A stretch of 11,680 bases of DNA from Candidatus Parvarchaeota archaeon UBA446 (GTDB taxonomy: Archaea; Nanobdellota; Nanobdellia; Parvarchaeales; Parvarchaeaceae). The position numbers and the translations under genes were made by a program. Location: the NCBI GenBank assembly GCA_002503215.1, contig DARG01000006.1, positions 1-11,680 on the forward strand, in the 5' to 3' direction. Shown here piece after piece: positions 3,943 to 11,680 of this stretch; within the stretch, counting starts at the first letter, position 1, and each line of letters begins with the position of its first letter. The notes under the pieces are model-generated. The model was given only the letters and a program-made list of their open reading frames with translations, was not told the origin of the DNA and did not search any database.

Positions 3943-3966
3943 AAAGATTGACCAAATTTGATCTTT
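3943..3966 (-). terminator. weak hairpin at the end of the heme cluster
   Basis: AAAGAT (3943-3948) and ATCTTT (3961-3966) can form a 6-bp stem, and the loop contains the palindrome CAAATTTG. It reaches the stop codon of the ABM gene at 3966. The stem is AT-only apart from one pair and no strong U-tract follows, so termination here is only a suggestion. Confidence 0.25.
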
Positions 3967-4283
3967 TACATTTTTTGTTCTGTATTTTCAGTAAATATCC
4001 TGTGCTTCGGATGGCCCTCTATTATTTCTTTTCCGGCTTCTACAGTTTGTTTGTATGCATCGCTTTGCATGAACTTCCTAAAACCATCTGTGTCCTCCCA
4101 CTCTGTATAAAGCATATACTCGCTTGGATTTGAAACTTCCTTGTAAAGTCTTGCATCTGTACATCCAAACCCTGCTTCCTTTATTGCTGAGACTGCAGCG
4201 TTAAACCTTTCTTCGAACTCAGATTCATGCCCCTCTTTTACCTTGTAATACAATCCGATGTTTATCATGTTTTTTGTAATCAC
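3966..4283 (-). CDS. ABM-domain protein, probable HemQ/PitA partner
   Basis: A 105-residue ferredoxin-like protein of the antibiotic biosynthesis monooxygenase (ABM) family. Visible hallmarks are a first strand INIGLYYKVKEGHE, then a helix, then EVSNPSEYMLYTEWEDTDGF (49-68) with the conserved W62, then FMQSDAYKQ. The IsdG-type heme oxygenases of this fold use an Asn-Trp-His set; I see no matching His in the helix after W62, so heme degradation is not supported. The GTG start at 4283 overlaps the upstream Cld-family stop as GTGA. An ATG at 4268 (MINIGLYYK) would start exactly at the domain and is equally or more likely. Haloarchaeal PitA is a Cld-family domain followed by an ABM domain in one chain; here the same order occurs as two coupled genes. 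This suggests a role with the HemQ-like protein, perhaps in heme handling. Confidence 0.82.
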   Translation of the reverse strand: MITKNMINIGLYYKVKEGHESEFEERFNAAVSAIKEAGFGCTDARLYKEVSNPSEYMLYTEWEDTDGFRKFMQSDAYKQTVEAGKEIIEGHPKHRIFTENTEQKM

Positions 4284-4909
4284 TGGAAATATAAAAACGC
4301 TTCATCCTTTATGCCGGCAAGTACAGGTATTTCCTTGGTAACCCATTTTCTAGCACGCGCCTGTCTAAGCTCTTCGACTACGCGTATCCACTCATTAATA
4401 GAAGGTAGCTCATACAATACAAGAAACTCATCATCCGATACACCGAACGATTTCATAGTATACGAAGAGATATTGTTATTGTTACCACTTGATTTTGCCA
4501 TGGAAATATGTTCAGCTGTTATTTGCTTTCTCTCGTTTTCCGGCAGCAAGTACCACTCTGTGGATTTACGCATAGGATAAGCTATAAAGTATTTGGCATT
4601 TTTATTCTCTACAAAAGGTTTCTGGCATACTGAAAGAAAGCCATAATTAAATTCGCCGTAATCTCCGAAAGTCTTTGAAAGGAAAACCTTGAAAGCCGAC
4701 AATTTTTCCCAGCTGTCTGCAGTCATCCAGAATATAATATCGGTATCATATCTTAGCGATGAATAGAAATTTATAGATGAATTCTCCAGCTTTGCTCTGG
4801 AAATTTCCATTTTCAAAGAATCCATCACTGAATGCCTAACTGCAGAATCAGTAGTCCACCATGAATGCTTTAGCTTAATTCCTGTAACGCTAACTGGGTA
4901 GTCTGTCAT
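4280..4909 (-). CDS. chdC: chlorite dismutase-family protein, probable coproheme decarboxylase (ChdC/HemQ)
   Basis: A 209-residue Cld-family protein. The segment YPMRKSTEWYLLPENERKQI (111-130) followed by TAEH (131-134) aligns by eye with the HemQ segment YPMxK...NWYxLPxEER...H. In bacterial HemQ, Tyr145, Lys149 and His172 are the radical tyrosine, a propionate contact and the heme ligand; the matching residues are Y111, K115 and H134, with a loop four residues shorter. The position of the distal Arg of true chlorite dismutases appears to be S149 near SFGVSDDEF, which argues against chlorite dismutation. The expected reaction is stepwise oxidative decarboxylation of coproheme III to heme b in the cytosol. 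Its ATG overlaps the hemA stop as ATGA, and its own stop overlaps the ABM start. Ferrochelatase and hemA lie upstream. Membership of the family is clear; the exact reaction is inferred from conserved residues and context. Confidence 0.86.
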   Translation of the reverse strand: MTDYPVSVTGIKLKHSWWTTDSAVRHSVMDSLKMEISRAKLENSSINFYSSLRYDTDIIFWMTADSWEKLSAFKVFLSKTFGDYGEFNYGFLSVCQKPFVENKNAKYFIAYPMRKSTEWYLLPENERKQITAEHISMAKSSGNNNNISSYTMKSFGVSDDEFLVLYELPSINEWIRVVEELRQARARKWVTKEIPVLAGIKDEAFLYFQ

Positions 4910-5817
4910 TTGTCCTCACCTTTGGACATAAATCTCCTGACTTCAATGTCTATTATACGCTCTGCAGAGTCTATATAATCTGTTGTCCCATTACTTTGAA
5001 TAGAAGAATTATTCATTATATCCTCGGCATACAAAGCATTTTTTCCAAGAAATGCCCTTGGCACAGAAAGGTCTATTATGGCCTTTGGCCCTTCTAAGTA
5101 CACTCCATTACCCCCTTTTATAGCGGATATTACTATATCATAGCCGTTTAATTTTTCAATATCCAATTCCTGATGTTCCAACCCAAATTTATTGGCCAGT
5201 CTGGCTGCGTTCACATCGCTTCTGCTGAATATTACTGGGTTAATGTCCGGAAAAGCGTAATCCATACGTCTTACTATACCACTTATAACCATGCCGGAGC
5301 CGACCATAGCCACCTTGTCCTTCTCGGAGTATAATCTCTTAAATGCCTCAACTGTGGAATTGTAAAGGATATTATCTCCATTGGATTTAGAGGTTTCTCT
5401 CCTGATCTTTCTTCCTACCATTATCGCATTTTCAAAAAGCTGCGCAAGCGTGCCATGACCATATTCATTGACGTAATCCTTGAACGCGCTGCGTACCTGT
5501 CCGAGTATCGCGTCCTCTCCGACAATAATTGACTCTAATCCTGCTGATACCCGAAAAGCATGTTTTATCGCGTCCTCTCCAACGAGAAATTCCCCACCTT
5601 GAATACCGTCATTCGCGCTGGCTTTGTCAAAGCGTGAAAAAATATTGTAAAGATTGAATAAGCTATCAGAATGAAAGTATACCTCTATCCTGTTGCATGT
5701 CTTCAACATGAGTGCATCCAGCCCTGACATGTCCTTTCTTGTTATATCGTACTTGTATATATCCTGCAAAGGCATGTTTTTGTGGGAATAGGAGACAACA
5801 CCATAGACCATAAACAA
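4906..5817 (-). CDS. hemA: glutamyl-tRNA reductase, short form
   Basis: It reduces glutamyl-tRNA(Glu) to glutamate-1-semialdehyde with NADPH, the first committed step of C5-route tetrapyrrole synthesis. The catalytic Cys is C41 in TCNRIEVY (40-47). A conserved His is H86, and GLESIIVGEDAILGQVRSAF (93-112) is the family signature. The NADPH-binding loop is MVGSGMVISG (171-180). The frame ends after 303 residues, whereas GluTR is usually about 400 or more; the last 25 residues look like the start of the long spine helix, so most of the C-terminal dimerisation domain is missing. There is no sign of a frameshift, since the stop overlaps the next ATG (ATGA) in a tidy operon. The start ATG has another in-frame ATG two codons later. 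It has its own TATA-like box in the 39-nt gap after the ferrochelatase. Confidence 0.93.
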   Translation of the reverse strand: MFMVYGVVSYSHKNMPLQDIYKYDITRKDMSGLDALMLKTCNRIEVYFHSDSLFNLYNIFSRFDKASANDGIQGGEFLVGEDAIKHAFRVSAGLESIIVGEDAILGQVRSAFKDYVNEYGHGTLAQLFENAIMVGRKIRRETSKSNGDNILYNSTVEAFKRLYSEKDKVAMVGSGMVISGIVRRMDYAFPDINPVIFSRSDVNAARLANKFGLEHQELDIEKLNGYDIVISAIKGGNGVYLEGPKAIIDLSVPRAFLGKNALYAEDIMNNSSIQSNGTTDYIDSAERIIDIEVRRFMSKGEDK

Positions 5818-5829
5818 TATATTACAATA

Positions 5830-5847
5830 TACTAATATATAAAAATT
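5830..5847. repeat. third copy of the 18-nt AT-rich motif, at the hemA promoter
   Basis: TACTAATATATAAAAATT is identical to the copy at 3883-3900 and differs by one base from that at 3860-3877. It overlaps the presumed hemA TATA box, which makes a regulatory role more plausible than for the other two copies alone. Confidence 0.6.
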
Positions 5848-5849
5848 TA
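5831..5849 (-). promoter_or_regulatory. putative TATA box for hemA
   Basis: On the minus strand the sequence TAAATTTTTATATATTAGT lies 14-32 nt before the ATG at 5817, consistent with a leaderless start. It sits in the 39-nt gap after the ferrochelatase stop, so hemA-chdC-ABM may be transcribed separately from the ferrochelatase gene. Confidence 0.45.
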
Positions 5850-5856
5850 AAACAAA

Positions 5857-6738
5857 TCAGAGGGCTTTCACTATTGCAGATGACATGGCAGAAATCAGTT
5901 TATCCGATAAGTTCAAGCAACTAGCTCTGTGCATATTTATCCCTATATCAACGGAGAACTTCTTATAACCAATGTCTATATCATATAACGTCTCCAGGCT
6001 ATCTGACAGATAACCTATCGGTACTATAAGCACGTCCTTGAAGCCCTTATCTTTTACATCTGTTAGTTTCTGCGTAACCTCGGGTGCGTACCAATTTGTG
6101 TGGCTTCCATTCTGATAGGCAAGACAATAATTTTTAATGTTGTTCATTTCTGCGAGTCTGGAAGAAAATTCTTCGAGCTGTGTTTTATATATTTTGTCCT
6201 CTACGGAAGACGGAAGACCGTGGGACGTGAATATGACAAACACGTCATTGATGTTACTGAACTTTCTAAGTTCTGCTTTTATGTTATCAGACCATGCATC
6301 GTAAAGGACTTCTTCGGAGTACCAGCTGTCTATGAACTTTGCATCCAACCCGTTGAAAGCGGAAAAGAACATTTTTTTGTACTCTTCGCTCCCCATTACC
6401 GACTTAAATGGATGAATAATCATTCCTATGACTTTTTCGGGATCTCCTTCTTTTATCGCAGAAGCAACCTCTTCTATTCTTGGGTGCCAGTGCTTCATTC
6501 CTATTGATACGCTGCAAACGTGTCCCAACGCTGCAAGATTCCTTTCCAAAAGAACGGCCTGCTCTTCTGTTATAGATTTGAGCGGAGAAAAACCTATCTT
6601 CTCGTACTTTTCAAGTGTTTCTTCCACCACGTTTTGAGGAACTTCTTTCCCATTGAATATGTCTTTCAGATACGGCCCTACATCCTCTTTCTTACTGGGA
6701 GTACCATATGCCATAAGCAAAATATTATTTTTTTCCAT
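5857..6738 (-). CDS. hemH: ferrochelatase, probable coproporphyrin ferrochelatase (CpfC)
   Basis: It inserts Fe2+ into a porphyrin. The catalytic His is H173 in FTSHGLP (170-176), and the acidic partner is E249 in SLETLYDID (247-255), the arrangement of Bacillus subtilis HemH (H183, E264). The N-terminus LLMAYGTPSKKEDVGPYL (7-24) closely resembles the Firmicute MAYGTP segment, whose Tyr (here Y11) is an iron ligand in coproporphyrin ferrochelatases; protoporphyrin enzymes usually carry NLG or NxG there. The length of 293 residues is normal for the monomeric soluble form, with no C-terminal membrane anchor. The start at 6738 has a TATA-like box 28 nt upstream. It heads the heme gene group and faces the tad operon across a divergent promoter region. 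Ferrochelatase is sure; substrate preference is inferred from the Tyr segment and the HemQ-like neighbour. Confidence 0.93.
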   Translation of the reverse strand: MEKNNILLMAYGTPSKKEDVGPYLKDIFNGKEVPQNVVEETLEKYEKIGFSPLKSITEEQAVLLERNLAALGHVCSVSIGMKHWHPRIEEVASAIKEGDPEKVIGMIIHPFKSVMGSEEYKKMFFSAFNGLDAKFIDSWYSEEVLYDAWSDNIKAELRKFSNINDVFVIFTSHGLPSSVEDKIYKTQLEEFSSRLAEMNNIKNYCLAYQNGSHTNWYAPEVTQKLTDVKDKGFKDVLIVPIGYLSDSLETLYDIDIGYKKFSVDIGINMHRASCLNLSDKLISAMSSAIVKAL

Positions 6739-6870: not shown

Positions 6871-8400
6871 ATGCAATCGGAAGCTGGAGAGATAAGAATA
6901 GTAGACAGTTATGACGTCGTATCTGACGGTGTAACTGCAAAGGTAAGGATACTCGATATTCCTTCCAAATTTACTATGGCATATCATCTGGCTACGCCGG
7001 TAATAGATCAGAGTATGAATGCCGTCCTTTCTGAGATAAGGACGGAGTTGATAAAGGAAAACCCTTCAAAAATACAGGAATTGTCGCAGACAACATCGGA
7101 ATTATTGAAAAGAGACTTTCTTGATATAGTACAGAAAAAACTGATTAAACTAATTCCAGGTATGCCGGAAAAATCATATATAGAGCTTTCTGCTACTCTG
7201 CTTCATGAGATGTTCGGTTTAGGTATAATAGAAATCCTTGATAACGACGCGAACCTTGAAGAAATCGTAATAAACGACTCAAAGACTTATGTAAAGGTGT
7301 ATCATGTTAAATATGGGTGGCTTGAAACCAATGTTAAAATAGAAACGGAATCCAAGATAGAAGCATATTCCCAGCAGATTGCAAGAAAAGTGGGAAGACA
7401 GATAACTAATCTAAATCCCTTGCTTGATGCACAGCTTCCAAATGGAGATAGGGTAAACGCTACTCTTTACCCTATATCCACGCATGGGAATACGCTTGAC
7501 ATCAGAAAGTTTAGAGCAGACCCTTGGACTGTAATAGATTTTCTAGAGAGAGGCACTCTATCCAAAGAACTTGTTTCATTTGTATGGCAGGCTATGCAGT
7601 ATGAACTTTCATTCCTTGTAACCGGTGGTACTGCTTCCGGTAAAACATCAATGCTTAATGTTTTCCTTCCTTTCATCCCTCCAAACCAGAGGATAATAAC
7701 CATAGAAGATACAAGCGAGCTTGTCCTTCCAAAGTATATGCACTGGGTTCCGATGCTTACTAGACAGAAGAACGCAGAAGGCAAAGGAGAGGTTACTATG
7801 CTTGACCTTTTGCTTAACTCTCTTAGAATGAGACCAGACAGACTTGTAGTAGGTGAGATAAGAAAGAAGGAAGACGCACAGACTCTTTTTGAAGCAATGA
7901 TGACTGGTCACTCCGTATATGCTACGATGCACGCGGAAACTGCACAACAAGTTGTTAAAAGACTTGTATCCGAACCGATAGATCTTCCTGAAATAGAAGT
8001 CGCGACTCTTGACCTTATAATTACCGCTTTCAGACAGAGAAGAACGGGAGTAAGACGTGTACTTGAGCTTGCAGAGATAGTAGAAAGACAAATAAGCGGA
8101 GTTACAGAGCTTAAGACCAACAACCTTTTTGAATGGAAACCAAGAAGCGATAAAATCGAAAGAACAATAAATACCTCCCAGAAATTATCGACAAAACTTG
8201 CTCTTTATTCGGGATTAACAAGCGATGAAATGGCAGATGACCTAAAGGAAAAGGTAACTGTGCTTCAGTGGATGACGGATAAAAAAATTAAAAATGTAAA
8301 CACTATAGGATTGACGGCAAGTAATTATTACACAAATCATGACCAACTCATGCAGCTGATAAAAGACAATGGAGATCCATCGCAGTTAGAGGTAATATAG
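6871..8400 (+). CDS. tadA: type II/IV secretion-family ATPase (TadA/FlaI-like)
   Basis: A 509-residue motor ATPase of the GspE/TadA/FlaI superfamily that powers pilus or archaellum-type filament assembly at the inner face of the membrane. An N-terminal domain (about 1-215) includes LLDAQLPNGDRVNATLYP (184-201), the usual segment before the nucleotide site. Walker A is GGTASGKTS (252-260, K258). The Asp box is ITIEDTSEL (276-284), Walker B is RLVVGEIR (324-331, E329), and the His box is YATMHAET (350-357). All catalytic parts are present. It starts an operon: the TAG at 8398-8400 is followed at once by the ATG of the first membrane partner. No FlaH, FlaX or pilin genes are next to it, so an archaellum is less likely than a pilus. 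The substrate cannot be told from the window. Confidence 0.94.
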   Translation: MQSEAGEIRIVDSYDVVSDGVTAKVRILDIPSKFTMAYHLATPVIDQSMNAVLSEIRTELIKENPSKIQELSQTTSELLKRDFLDIVQKKLIKLIPGMPEKSYIELSATLLHEMFGLGIIEILDNDANLEEIVINDSKTYVKVYHVKYGWLETNVKIETESKIEAYSQQIARKVGRQITNLNPLLDAQLPNGDRVNATLYPISTHGNTLDIRKFRADPWTVIDFLERGTLSKELVSFVWQAMQYELSFLVTGGTASGKTSMLNVFLPFIPPNQRIITIEDTSELVLPKYMHWVPMLTRQKNAEGKGEVTMLDLLLNSLRMRPDRLVVGEIRKKEDAQTLFEAMMTGHSVYATMHAETAQQVVKRLVSEPIDLPEIEVATLDLIITAFRQRRTGVRRVLELAEIVERQISGVTELKTNNLFEWKPRSDKIERTINTSQKLSTKLALYSGLTSDEMADDLKEKVTVLQWMTDKKIKNVNTIGLTASNYYTNHDQLMQLIKDNGDPSQLEVI

Positions 8401-9297
8401 ATGGCAACAAAAATACCCGCAGTTATAATCTCTCCTGAAAAAGCTTTATTCTTCGGTAAAAAATTCAAGAAGCTTGCATTTAATTTTAAAGGAATAGTGC
8501 CTACACTCAAACAGGACCTTATCCAGGCATCCATGTCTATAGATTATCTGGATTATATAGCTGCGGGGATAGTAGTTGCGCTTGTACTAGTTGGTCTTAT
8601 GGCAGGGGTTTCCGGATTGATTATTCTTATAGCTATAAAGAAAAATCTCCTTACAATTAAAATTGAAGCGATACTGCCTGTATTGATATTTGTAGTACCT
8701 GCGGTTTACTTCTTTTATTTTCTGAATTTTCCGAAGCTCCAGGCAGTAAAAAGAACAAAGCTAATAGAAGAGCAGGTAGTTTTTGCTATCAGAGAAATCA
8801 TGATAAAAGTTGGTTCTGGAGTTCCTATATTCAATGCACTTCTAGACGTAGCAAATGGAAATTATGGAATTATATCAGACGAATTCAAATTAGCTGTTGA
8901 GGAGATAGAATCGGGTGTTCCGCAGAATGATGCGTTGGATCACCTCGCTAGAAGAGTTCCTTCGCAGTCGCTAAGAAGAGCTATAGATATAATATTAAAT
9001 GCAATAAAGTCAGGTAGTGATATAGCGGGAACGTTGGAACTTATAAATGATATGCTTATAAAAAAACAACAATCGGATATGAAATCTTATGCCGGTGAAC
9101 TAACCCCAATGTCTATGGCTTACATGCTTATCTCAGTAGTTGTACCTAGTCTTGGAATGTCAGTATTTGTTATACTGGGATCTTTGGCACACTTTAACAC
9201 AAAAGCAATAATATACATTATACCTCCATTTCTCCTTATATTCCAGATATTTTTCATGGGAATGGTAGGGAACAGGAGACCATCGATAGGAGTATGA
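8401..9297 (+). CDS. TadB/FlaJ-like pilus platform membrane protein (T2SSF)
   Basis: A 298-residue polytopic membrane protein. Hydrophobic segments lie at about 51-79, 87-110, 234-262 and 268-290. The cytosolic stretch between them (about 111-230) has the T2SSF pattern, with EEQVVFAIREIMIKVGSGVP (123-142) and SGVPQNDALDHLARRVPSQS (171-190) plus a LRRAIDIILNAIKSGSDI helix. Proteins of this family form the membrane platform that the TadA-type ATPase acts on. It starts immediately after the tadA stop with no spacer and overlaps the next gene by 4 nt (ATGA at 9294-9297), so the three genes are a translationally coupled unit. The match is at family level; I cannot tell TadB from TadC orthology. 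Confidence 0.88.
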   Translation: MATKIPAVIISPEKALFFGKKFKKLAFNFKGIVPTLKQDLIQASMSIDYLDYIAAGIVVALVLVGLMAGVSGLIILIAIKKNLLTIKIEAILPVLIFVVPAVYFFYFLNFPKLQAVKRTKLIEEQVVFAIREIMIKVGSGVPIFNALLDVANGNYGIISDEFKLAVEEIESGVPQNDALDHLARRVPSQSLRRAIDIILNAIKSGSDIAGTLELINDMLIKKQQSDMKSYAGELTPMSMAYMLISVVVPSLGMSVFVILGSLAHFNTKAIIYIIPPFLLIFQIFFMGMVGNRRPSIGV

Positions 9298-10364
9298 AAA
9301 ATAAATATAAAATTAATAGTGGTATTAAAAGAAAATACAAAGGTAGAAGTAAAAGAGAACTATTATCTAGACTCCTTCCAAAATCACTTACTATCGGATT
9401 AAAGGAGCAGTTTATATACGCACAGATGACTGGAGATAATCCCGATGAAACTATAGGATCCATAATAATGTTATTGCTCGTAGCTGCAGTTATCGGAGGT
9501 ATATTAACTTTTCATTTTCTTAATTCTGCTTTATACGGGTTGGGAGCCGTAGCAGCTATATTATTTGGAGGAATTTTCCTTTCGGAGGCATTAGTGGCTA
9601 TGATAGCAGATTCCGTATCAACTAAAATAGAAAAAGTACTGCCGGATATGCTTTTGCTTATGGCCGCTAACCTTAGAGCGGGAATGATACCTGAAAATTC
9701 TTTTATCTCGTCGATGAAACCAGAATTCGGTAAACTCAATAACCTGCTTAATAAAGCAGCCATAGAGACACAAGCCGGAAAAACCTTCCCGGAAGCTCTA
9801 CTGGAAATGAATGATCTTACAAGTTCGGAATTCTTCAAAGACAGCGTAAGAATAATATCTGAAAGCATCAGGTCTGGAGCTGAGTTACACCTTATACTTG
9901 AAAACCTTGCCAGCAACTTGTTGCAGAATGAAAGCATAAGAAGTGATATGAGAGCACAGGTAAAGAGTTATTCCCTTTTCATATTCATAGCAGCTACTCT
10001 TGCAGGGCCATTGCTTTATGGAGTATCTTCATTCCTTATAGGTATCATGGACAGTGTAGGTGCATCTACTGCAGGCTCTACTTCCGCTACAAACTTACCA
10101 TCCGGTACATTGGGATTATTTTCCGGCTTTAGCCTTCCGAATATTTCTGTTACTTTAATAGTAACAGTAGCAGTAATAAACGTTATTATAACTACCGCTT
10201 CAAGTGCACTTTTGGGGGGCATACTAAATACAGGAAAGGCGAAAAATGGTATAAGAAATGTACCAGTATATGTCGCTATAGGTCTTGGAATATTCTTTAT
10301 GGTAAGAATTGGTGTATCTATATTTTTCGCAAGCTCTAATCTTACTTCCAGTGGATCATTTTAA
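9294..10364 (+). CDS. TadC/FlaJ-like pilus platform membrane protein (T2SSF)
   Basis: A 356-residue second T2SSF-type membrane protein. A Lys/Arg-rich start (1-40) is followed by hydrophobic segments at about 53-75, 78-105, 224-250, 284-310 and 324-346. The cytosolic T2SSF stretch (about 106-223) includes EKVLPDMLLLMAANLRAGMI (113-132) and ESIRSGAELHLILENLASNL (190-209). A Ser/Thr/Gly-rich loop (about 255-282) probably faces outside. Having two separate T2SSF proteins beside one ATPase matches Tad-like archaeal pilus operons, where they may pair as a heterodimeric platform. Its ATG overlaps the previous stop. The operon ends here; the TAA is 33 nt before tRNA-Val, whose promoter seems to overlap the last codons. 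Confidence 0.88.
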   Translation: MKNKYKINSGIKRKYKGRSKRELLSRLLPKSLTIGLKEQFIYAQMTGDNPDETIGSIIMLLLVAAVIGGILTFHFLNSALYGLGAVAAILFGGIFLSEALVAMIADSVSTKIEKVLPDMLLLMAANLRAGMIPENSFISSMKPEFGKLNNLLNKAAIETQAGKTFPEALLEMNDLTSSEFFKDSVRIISESIRSGAELHLILENLASNLLQNESIRSDMRAQVKSYSLFIFIAATLAGPLLYGVSSFLIGIMDSVGASTAGSTSATNLPSGTLGLFSGFSLPNISVTLIVTVAVINVIITTASSALLGGILNTGKAKNGIRNVPVYVAIGLGIFFMVRIGVSIFFASSNLTSSGSF

Positions 10365-10715: not shown

Positions 10716-10725
10716 TCAAGATATT
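10710..10725 (-). terminator. hairpin over the stop codon of the LamG gene
   Basis: AATATCT and AGATATT form a perfect 7-bp inverted repeat with a 2-nt spacer, spanning the TGA stop at 10716-10718. On the minus strand an AT-rich stretch with four T follows. It may aid termination or protect the mRNA end; the very short loop makes the hairpin uncertain. Confidence 0.35.
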
Positions 10726-11680
10726 GGATAGTTACTTGTATAGAAGACTACTGATGTAGCTACCCCATTATAATTATTACCGCTATAGTCCTTTGCTGTT
10801 CCATTTAACGGCCAATAACCTACAAACTGCTTGTTTATAGGATAACTTCCCATGCCTTTGCTAAATATTGATGATATCTGGTTTCCTGTAAGAGATTCGT
10901 TATAAAATTGTAAATTGGCCATATCTCCGATAAATTGATCGTCGCATCCCGCTAAACCGGAACCTATTAAACCAAGAGAAGATAACGTAATATTAGCTTT
11001 TGAATAGTAAGAACTGCTTGATAGCTTACCATTTATGTAAAAATTTACATAAGAATCGTTATACGTAGCTATTAAATTTTCCCATGAACTGTTTTTAACT
11101 GGGCCCCCAAACATGTTTGTCTGTGTTGTTGTGCCACCACTGTTATTGAACAATTCTAACATAATTTTATTACCAAGAATCCATGAGGAATATCCACTTA
11201 CACCAAATCTAAACGATGCTACAGGGTTATACAACCCAAATACATTTATCTCACAGGTAACAACATTTGGAAGCTGATATATCCAGGCCGAAAGAGAAAA
11301 CGACCCGCTCTTAAGTGTTTTATTAATCGCTGGATTTGACGTAAGAGATATGTTTATCCTGCTTATATCCGGAGATCCCTCCGAAGGGGGTTGATATGGG
11401 TTTGAATAAGTAGCAGTACTACTGATAGGACCAGTGAATACGGCCACATATGCAGGAGCACTATTTGATGAAACTGTTCCTGTTATGGAGCCGGAAGAAG
11501 GATAAATAGCCGAAGGAAAAGAAGAACTTGGTTCCATGTAATTTATCGTTACTGCTGCTAAGAAATGATTACCTGCAGAAGGGCATATGTTTGGAACTGA
11601 AAATGTATATGTGCTTCCTGGTGCTATAGTTGGATTTGGATCTATTGTTGCATTTGGGGTAAAAGTAACGGTTTTACTGC
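10716..11680 (-). CDS. LamG-domain surface protein, 5' end outside the window
   Basis: The frame stays open to the window edge, giving at least 320 residues; the ATG at 11537 is internal, since 47 more codons precede it without a stop. The part near the edge is Pro/Thr-rich (TPNATIDPNPTIAPGSTYTF), like a stalk or beta-sandwich region. A LamG/concanavalin A-like fold follows, with SFSLSAWIYQLP, SSWENLIATYNDSYVNFYIN and FIGDMANLQFYNESL as its core strands. The C-terminus QFVGYWPLNGTAKDYSGNNY reads like the opening of a second LamG unit that then stops. Nine N-x-S/T sequons (for example NIS, NKT, NSS, NDS, NES, NGT) suggest a glycosylated cell-surface or S-layer-associated protein. No C-terminal membrane anchor is seen; a signal peptide would lie outside the window. 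A ligand cannot be named. Confidence 0.85.
   Translation of the reverse strand, partial: SKTVTFTPNATIDPNPTIAPGSTYTFSVPNICPSAGNHFLAAVTINYMEPSSSFPSAIYPSSGSITGTVSSNSAPAYVAVFTGPISSTATYSNPYQPPSEGSPDISRINISLTSNPAINKTLKSGSFSLSAWIYQLPNVVTCEINVFGLYNPVASFRFGVSGYSSWILGNKIMLELFNNSGGTTTQTNMFGGPVKNSSWENLIATYNDSYVNFYINGKLSSSSYYSKANITLSSLGLIGSGLAGCDDQFIGDMANLQFYNESLTGNQISSIFSKGMGSYPINKQFVGYWPLNGTAKDYSGNNYNGVATSVVFYTSNYPIS

Follow-up and report, generated by a model that had tools for sequence, protein, structure and literature searches.

How does a small archaeon that encodes the last two enzymes of a heme pathway come by the porphyrin on which they would act? We address this question for a four-gene cluster of Candidatus Parvarchaeota archaeon UBA446, found in a stretch of 11,680 bases (the window). 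This stretch makes up the whole of contig G000:C19, and the genome, 841 kb in 41 contigs, has a completeness of 93.12%. An initial annotation had placed open reading frames (ORFs) for a ferrochelatase, HemA and a Cld-family protein in apparently archaeal DNA, and had read them as a coproporphyrin-route cluster that would be notable in an archaeon and might reflect transfer from bacteria. The archaeal source and the three ORFs, with hemA in the middle and all on the minus strand, were confirmed; the adjoining gene for an ABM-domain protein, a HemA without its dimerisation domain and the absence of upstream pathway genes go beyond that annotation. Because the last two enzymes are encoded and no hemB, hemC, hemE, hemL, cgoX or ahbD is recognisable, we think it likely, if by no great measure, that other cells are the source of coproporphyrin III (or its reduced form), which the cell takes up and, as we predict, finishes to heme b.

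On the minus strand the ORFs run in the order cpfC (6738–5857), hemA (5817–4906), chdC (4909–4280) and ABM (4283–3966), and the start of chdC overlaps the stop of hemA by 4 bases. With the likely starts given below, the features are:

5857–6738, minus strand: cpfC, predicted coproporphyrin ferrochelatase, 293 amino acids (PF00762, TIGR00109, residue alignment, tree)
4906–5811, minus strand: hemA, homologue of glutamyl-tRNA reductase that has the catalytic and NAD(P) domains and lacks the C-terminal dimerisation domain (PF05201, 7-sequence alignment, model match)
4280–4909, minus strand: chdC, predicted Cld-family coproheme decarboxylase, 209 amino acids (PF06778, profile match, model, tree)
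3966–4268, minus strand: ABM-domain protein, split counterpart of the haloarchaeal ChdC–ABM fusion PitA (PF03992, 13-sequence alignment, adjoins chdC)

Predicted terminal enzymes of the coproporphyrin route

The ferrochelatase matched PF00762 (3.7e-61) and passed the NCBIfam model TIGR00109 (166.9 bits over a cut-off of 124.6), while its score with PRK12435 (161.4 bits) was under the cut-off of 455. Counted along the alignment, its Y11, H173 and E249 align with Y13, H183 and E264 of the Bacillus subtilis ferrochelatase (1ak1), so the protein combines the family match with all three of these residues, and the tyrosine of the AYGTP segment singled out by the initial annotation does fall at the catalytic position. 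By family and residues CpfC looks coproporphyrin-type, with a predicted preference for coproporphyrin III over protoporphyrin IX.

The Cld-family protein matched PF06778 (6.1e-36), and its profile matches included 3dtz (2.5e-58) and coproheme decarboxylases (4.8e-26). Its Y111 and H134 align with Y135 and the His at 158 of the Corynebacterium diphtheriae enzyme, a correspondence that holds because the W183Y entry 7q4f fixes the chain offset at +2; we take this His to be the proximal heme ligand. Y111, P112, K115, W119 and H134 are invariant across 14 aligned ChdC proteins, in agreement with the Tyr/Lys pair of the YPMxK motif and the heme His noticed earlier. The predicted structure (mean predicted local distance difference test score, pLDDT, 86.7) has the Thermoplasma protein TA0507 as its best PDB match (3dtz_B, TMq 0.88) and also resembles bacterial coproheme decarboxylases, so that a Cld-family fold and the catalytic Tyr and His occur together. 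The distal His118 of the actinobacterial enzymes, a subgroup trait, is not kept: the loop is shorter and no His aligns there. ChdC thus looks coproporphyrin-type by family and residues, and decarboxylase activity is predicted.

Absence of upstream pathway genes

Each search for other pathway genes covered 29 genomes, namely our own, 16 others of the genus (63 to 100% complete) and 12 of the class, with 14 controls. We detected hemB in none of the 29 (17 of them from the genus, our own included; 11 of 14 controls matched), hemC in one (G006; 11 of 14 controls) and hemE in two (G006 and G021; 8 of 14 controls), and neither hemC nor hemE in our own genome. No genome had a cgoX/PPO match (TIGR00562) over the cut-off, which 4 of 14 controls reached; there were five weak, short matches, none of them in our own genome, and the oxygen-independent CgoN was not searched for. 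hemL was likewise over its cut-off in none of the 29 genomes and in 9 of 14 controls. Our own genome therefore showed neither the HemB, HemC and HemE that would supply coproporphyrinogen (hemD was not searched for) nor the CgoX of the coproporphyrin-dependent pathway. The siroheme-route gene ahbD (TIGR04545) had no match in our own genome and none over the cut-off among the 29; this cut-off is strict, because only 1 of 14 controls passes it, and ahbA–C were not searched for. Of the coproporphyrin-route cluster first proposed, then, CpfC and ChdC in an archaeon without an ahbD match stand, and a pathway does not: hemB, hemC, hemE and cgoX, which the initial annotation had marked as the genes to look for, were all unmatched in the genome.

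Several candidates for the missing steps were considered and rejected. The best HemL match in our own genome reached 55.9 bits, where the cut-off is 527.3. A HemL-like protein of G012 scored 403 with TIGR00713 and passed PRK00062.1 (412.4 over 398), and scored highest with GntE, under the GntE cut-off; a HemL-like protein of G004 scored 386.8 bits. As for AhbD taking the place of ChdC in G013, the scanned matches, those of G013 and G006, passed the cut-off of TIGR04053 and not that of AhbD; G001 and G014 also gave similar AhbD-search matches. The two scanned proteins (L072 in G013 and L075 in G006) are TIGR04053-family radical SAM/SPASM proteins, with AhbD scoring just below.

A HemA without its dimerisation domain

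The product of hemA is a homologue of glutamyl-tRNA reductase (GluTR). The listed ORF opens at TTG 5817, and relatives start at ATG 5811, the likely start. The protein matched PF05201 (4.3e-26), and T40, C41, R43, E45, H86, S96, E101 and Q107 are invariant in seven aligned sequences (our own, G002, G004, G005, G009, G013 and G020; YP2, introduced below, was left out). C41 aligns with a Cys in 4n7r, and the model (mean pLDDT 83.5) resembles plant GluTR (5yjl_A, TMq 0.78), so the catalytic Cys and His and the NAD(P) domain are in place. The dimerisation domain PF00745 had no match in the window HemA or that of G004, and the window protein did not reach the TIGR01035 cut-off (110.2 of 209.55 bits). 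Seven Parvarchaeota HemA proteins (our own, G002, G004, G005, G009, G013 and YP2) are 297 to 316 amino acids long; Thermoplasmata loci encode their own longer HemA, and the two that we scanned carry the dimerisation domain. Because no hemL or hemB was recognised, the product of this HemA has no known porphyrin use in the cell.

The ABM protein

The fourth gene matched PF03992 (8.4e-17), and its likely start is a conserved ATG at 4268, with a GTG alternative at 4283. N8, W62 and H94 are invariant in an alignment of 13 ABM proteins. The protein matched the heme-degrading model HmuQ weakly (27.7 of 130 bits), and a conserved His is absent at the presumed position of the IsdG heme ligand. PitA is a ChdC fused to an ABM domain through a His-rich linker; here the two are separate neighbouring genes.

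Distribution and conservation in relatives

Among the 29 genomes we found cpfC in 7, chdC in 10 and hemA in 7 (six of the genus and G020). The ABM gene adjoins chdC in 11 of 11 genus loci; in a wider scan, which used queries from Parvarchaeota and flanks of at most 10 kb, all 13 loci with Parvarchaeota or Nanoarchaeota in the title had it close to chdC (several of them are contigs of the genus loci), against 0 of 23 other archaeal loci. Five of the seven cpfC-bearing genus genomes (our own, G002, G005, G009 and G013) have cpfC adjoining hemA, and the co-occurrence of the two genes over 17 genomes had a p of 0.035, uncorrected for five tests. All four genes also cluster in Nanoarchaeota archaeon YP2.bin8 (L076; YP2), with hemA on the opposite strand. 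G010 has cpfC and chdC with no hemA found, and in G001, G007, G011, G012, G015 and G016 we found none of cpfC, chdC and hemA.

Ratios of nonsynonymous to synonymous substitution (dN/dS) were low for all four genes: 0.14 for cpfC (pair G002–G005), 0.14 for hemA in its sole unsaturated pair (again G002–G005), 0.05–0.15 for chdC over ten pairs, and 0.03–0.06 for ABM over nine unsaturated pairs among G002, G003, G005, G008 and G010; many more distant pairs were saturated.

The relatives offered three side observations. G002 has a second, partial cpfC at a contig end (L063, G002:C33) with the same neighbours as the first copy, which could be a duplication, a strain variant or an assembly effect. 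In G006 (G006:C5, L048:7644–11231), chdC–ABM has as its neighbour an operon of a fused hemCD, hemE and a cpfC of Lactobacillales type, which gives the impression that more of the pathway was recovered, with hemB still unmatched. Upstream of chdC and on the same strand we also saw ftsZ, adjacent in Thermoplasma sp. FL (L104:8710–10540) and a few genes apart in Parvarchaeota relatives, G002 among them (L052:69–3239).

Evolutionary origin

Transfer from bacteria, raised by the initial annotation, was not favoured for the window ChdC and CpfC. A single clade (support 100/99) unites 42 of the 47 rows in the ChdC tree; its members are archaeal by title or name, except for P0002 and P0003, which are closely related to the window. 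Support for the group of 14 Parvarchaeota-type rows is 88/86, and four bacterial plasmid rows (no Firmicutes) and one other row stand outside the clade. In the CpfC tree (44 rows), the 11 genus-type rows group together (100/99), and their nearest group, with moderate support (90/80), is Thermoplasmata plus haloarchaea. Since both proteins group with archaea, a bacterial origin is not favoured. The exception is the cpfC of G006, for which a bacterial source fits because it joins Lactobacillales (95/88). PF00762 was present in 12 of 20 named genomes (10 of 11 Thermoplasmata, YP2 and G006) and absent in three Sulfolobaceae and the other five tested (L086 counted). On the haloarchaeal megaplasmids L129 and L130, hemH adjoins hemG (and hemE in Natronorubrum) by annotation.

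The CpfC tree took 20 of the best 120 of 262 homologues and 8 of 52 plasmid records; left out were L022, L063 and L122 (partial) and L123 and L124 (internal stops), and rows of Streptomyces, Halorussus and Natronorubrum had odd composition. For the ChdC tree, 9 rows came from the 52 profile homologues and 4 from the 13 plasmid records. It excludes L110, whose frame is interrupted, together with 11 loci of Parvarchaeota or Nanoarchaeota (L078, L088, L090–L093, L097, L098, L100, L102 and L107), several of which are copies of genus contigs that were included (unconfirmed for L090 and L097). Here odd composition affected L133, L136, L135 and L109, and long branches L111, P0172, P0158 and L136.

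A candidate heme user

Contig C29 of our own genome encodes cytochrome bd subunit I (PF01654, 7.1e-96), which we found in 11 of the 29 genomes, ten of them of the genus. The ORF next to it, in the expected place of subunit II, had no Pfam match. Near the subunit I gene, a sugar-transporter-family gene of the major facilitator superfamily is split over two ORFs (C29, L064:930–2511). Chen et al. reported cytochrome bd-II in 13 Parvarchaeota genomes, related to that of Thermoplasmatales, and small archaea physically associated with Thermoplasmatales; the main text of that paper contains neither the word heme nor the word ferrochelatase (PMC5864196).

Proposed precursor import and its alternatives

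It is a puzzle in the literature how ARMAN-type archaea equip their cytochrome bd with heme, since no complete heme pathway is seen in them or in their hosts; uptake of finished heme or an unknown synthesis has been proposed (PMC5498576). Only the finishing enzymes are kept here, so an earlier precursor is suggested as the traded good. Coproporphyrin(ogen) III leaked by neighbours, probably Thermoplasmata, would enter the cell; if it came as the porphyrinogen it would be oxidized without CgoX, spontaneously or by some other enzyme. CpfC, going by its family and residues, would insert iron to give coproheme, and ChdC would strip the carboxyl groups off two propionates to give heme b. The ABM protein may then take over the product, the role suggested for its counterpart within PitA, and cytochrome bd, for which we found the subunit I gene, may be the destination of the heme.

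Among porphyrins, coproporphyrin is one that cells often leak. The four-gene cluster on one strand, the aligned active sites, the absent upstream genes, the recurrence in relatives, the low dN/dS and the cytochrome bd gene all argue for import. Thermoplasmata are candidate donors: most of those searched have ferrochelatase genes, as noted, and hemE and hemH are reported for Thermoplasma and Picrophilus (PMC3004389). We extend this tentatively, as a possibility that we would not yet call likely, to a division of the heme pathway between two archaeal cells, in which the host makes and leaks coproporphyrin(ogen) III, the symbiont finishes it for its own cytochrome bd, and the dimerless HemA, its gene fixed next to cpfC, has a new tetrapyrrole-linked task. 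If true, precursor trade would be a new kind of dependence of an archaeon on its host; it would single out a compound for measurement and feeding, and might aid the culturing of such organisms. It also means that cpfC and chdC in a genome do not imply heme made from scratch.

Several points weigh against import. Both it and the two enzyme activities are things we infer for this organism, whose genome is 93% complete. We found chdC without cpfC or hemA in G003, G008 and G014, chdC and hemA without cpfC in G004 (98% complete), and cpfC and hemA without chdC in G013; this uneven presence fits import less well. The ChdC model also matched chlorite dismutases (TMq 0.77–0.84 among the 50 matches listed), so the fold alone does not decide its function, and the protein did not reach the NCBIfam HemQ_actino cut-off (85.1 of 235 bits). 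The retention of HemA is not explained by import. Co-occurrence of chdC and cytochrome bd was not significant (p 0.35 over 17 genomes), and 2 of the 10 genus cytochrome bd matches are fragments (G007 and G016). Leucobacter ASN212, reportedly fed by coproporphyrins, offers a parallel in which one microbe grows on a porphyrin precursor from another (as cited in PMC6868719, PMC12285269 and PMC11139205); it is a bacterium, and two other strains, GP and HA-1, were unresponsive to fed coproporphyrins (PMC6868719; PMC12285269).

Might the cell instead take up finished heme or coproheme, with CpfC and ChdC as relics or in a different role in porphyrin handling (detoxification or release of iron, for example), and with ABM binding or degrading heme? 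This would suit the four genus genomes with chdC and no cpfC (G003, G004, G008 and G014) and the weak ABM match to HmuQ, and exogenous heme has been proposed for Mia14 (PMC5498576). We consider it unlikely, as the low dN/dS and invariant active-site residues speak against relics and the ABM protein lacks a conserved His at the presumed IsdG position. Acid mine drainage is also rich in iron. De novo synthesis, by early enzymes that the family models fail to recognise or that fall in assembly gaps, would make HemA, present with its catalytic residues, an ordinary first step; genome completeness (93% here, 63–100% in the genus) and a search set without hemD leave room for it. However, gaps alone would need to recur, because the early genes are absent across the genus (hemB in 0, hemC in 1 and hemE in 1 of 17 genomes, with positive controls), and the HemB and HemC models do recognise Methanocaldococcus, Haloferax, Sulfolobus and Methanosarcina, which makes de novo synthesis quite improbable in our judgement.

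The place of hemA beside cpfC in five of seven genomes, without hemB and without hemL over the cut-off, could also point to a two-way exchange, in which the short HemA makes glutamate-1-semialdehyde for the host and the host returns coproporphyrin. Thermoplasmata loci have their own longer HemA, two with the dimerisation domain, while glutamate-1-semialdehyde is unstable and the short HemA may be inactive, so we give this exchange very little credence. Import of coproporphyrin(ogen) III thus remains the reading that we prefer.

Comparison with known systems

Like the CgoX–CpfC–ChdC pathway of Firmicutes and Actinobacteria, the cluster encodes homologues of CpfC and ChdC whose catalytic residues align; unlike it, there is no cgoX, hemB, hemC or hemE match and the sequences group with archaea. 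Archaeal ChdC and CpfC are themselves not new, contrary to first expectation: Haloferax has PitA (PMC5746218), and Thermoplasma and Picrophilus are reported to have hemE and hemH (PMC3004389). PitA has been studied as a ChdC, its deletion slowing aerobic growth and heme rescuing it, and a heme-holding role has been suggested for its ABM part (PMC5746218). Haloferax volcanii shares the coupling of ChdC to ABM; it is reported without uroD, cgoX and cpfC and with the Ahb route, whereas here there are two separate genes and a cpfC (PMC5746218). For Thermoplasma and Picrophilus, TA0507 is the best PDB match of the window ChdC and CpfC groups nearby (90/80). Storbeck et al. (2010) described Picrophilus and two Thermoplasma with hemE and hemH and no ahb genes, the route being unclear, and no hemF/N or hemG/Y either; unlike our genome, these are reported with hemA, hemL, hemB, hemC, hemD and hemE (PMC3004389).

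Mia14, an ARMAN-2-type member of the Micrarchaeota living with Cuniculiplasma, resembles our organism in its cytochrome bd, incomplete heme pathway and proposed host supply, but its published description gives it no heme biosynthesis genes and proposes finished heme as the traded molecule (PMC5498576). Some orders of Micrarchaeota have complete or near-complete heme pathways according to a 2025 survey (PMC12892359). Trypanosomatids and their bacterial symbionts likewise share heme synthesis between them, following the loss of genes and lateral transfer; there a bacterial symbiont gives heme enzymes to a eukaryotic host, whereas here an archaeal symbiont would finish a precursor of the host (PMC3154472). 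A 2021 survey of ferrochelatases excluded archaeal genomes (PMC8529089), and within the open-licence PMC literature as retrieved we found no description of a partial coproporphyrin pathway in Parvarchaeota.

Genomic context of the cluster

The GC content is 0.394 in the cluster, 0.35 in the remaining window and 0.374 in contig C29, and we read it as unremarkable. A sigma-70 promoter scan, which is not suited to archaea, found nothing above chance. Downstream of the cluster lie genes for a GH15-family protein and a methyltransferase, and upstream, divergently, an arlI-like gene and two arlJ-like genes. In this upstream stretch (6871–10364) the arlI-like gene, for an ATPase, comes first, and the two arlJ-like genes after it encode separate T2SSF proteins in place of the usual single full-length ArlJ. 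At 10716–11678, an ORF running off the contig end encodes a Laminin_G_3 (LamG-like) domain.

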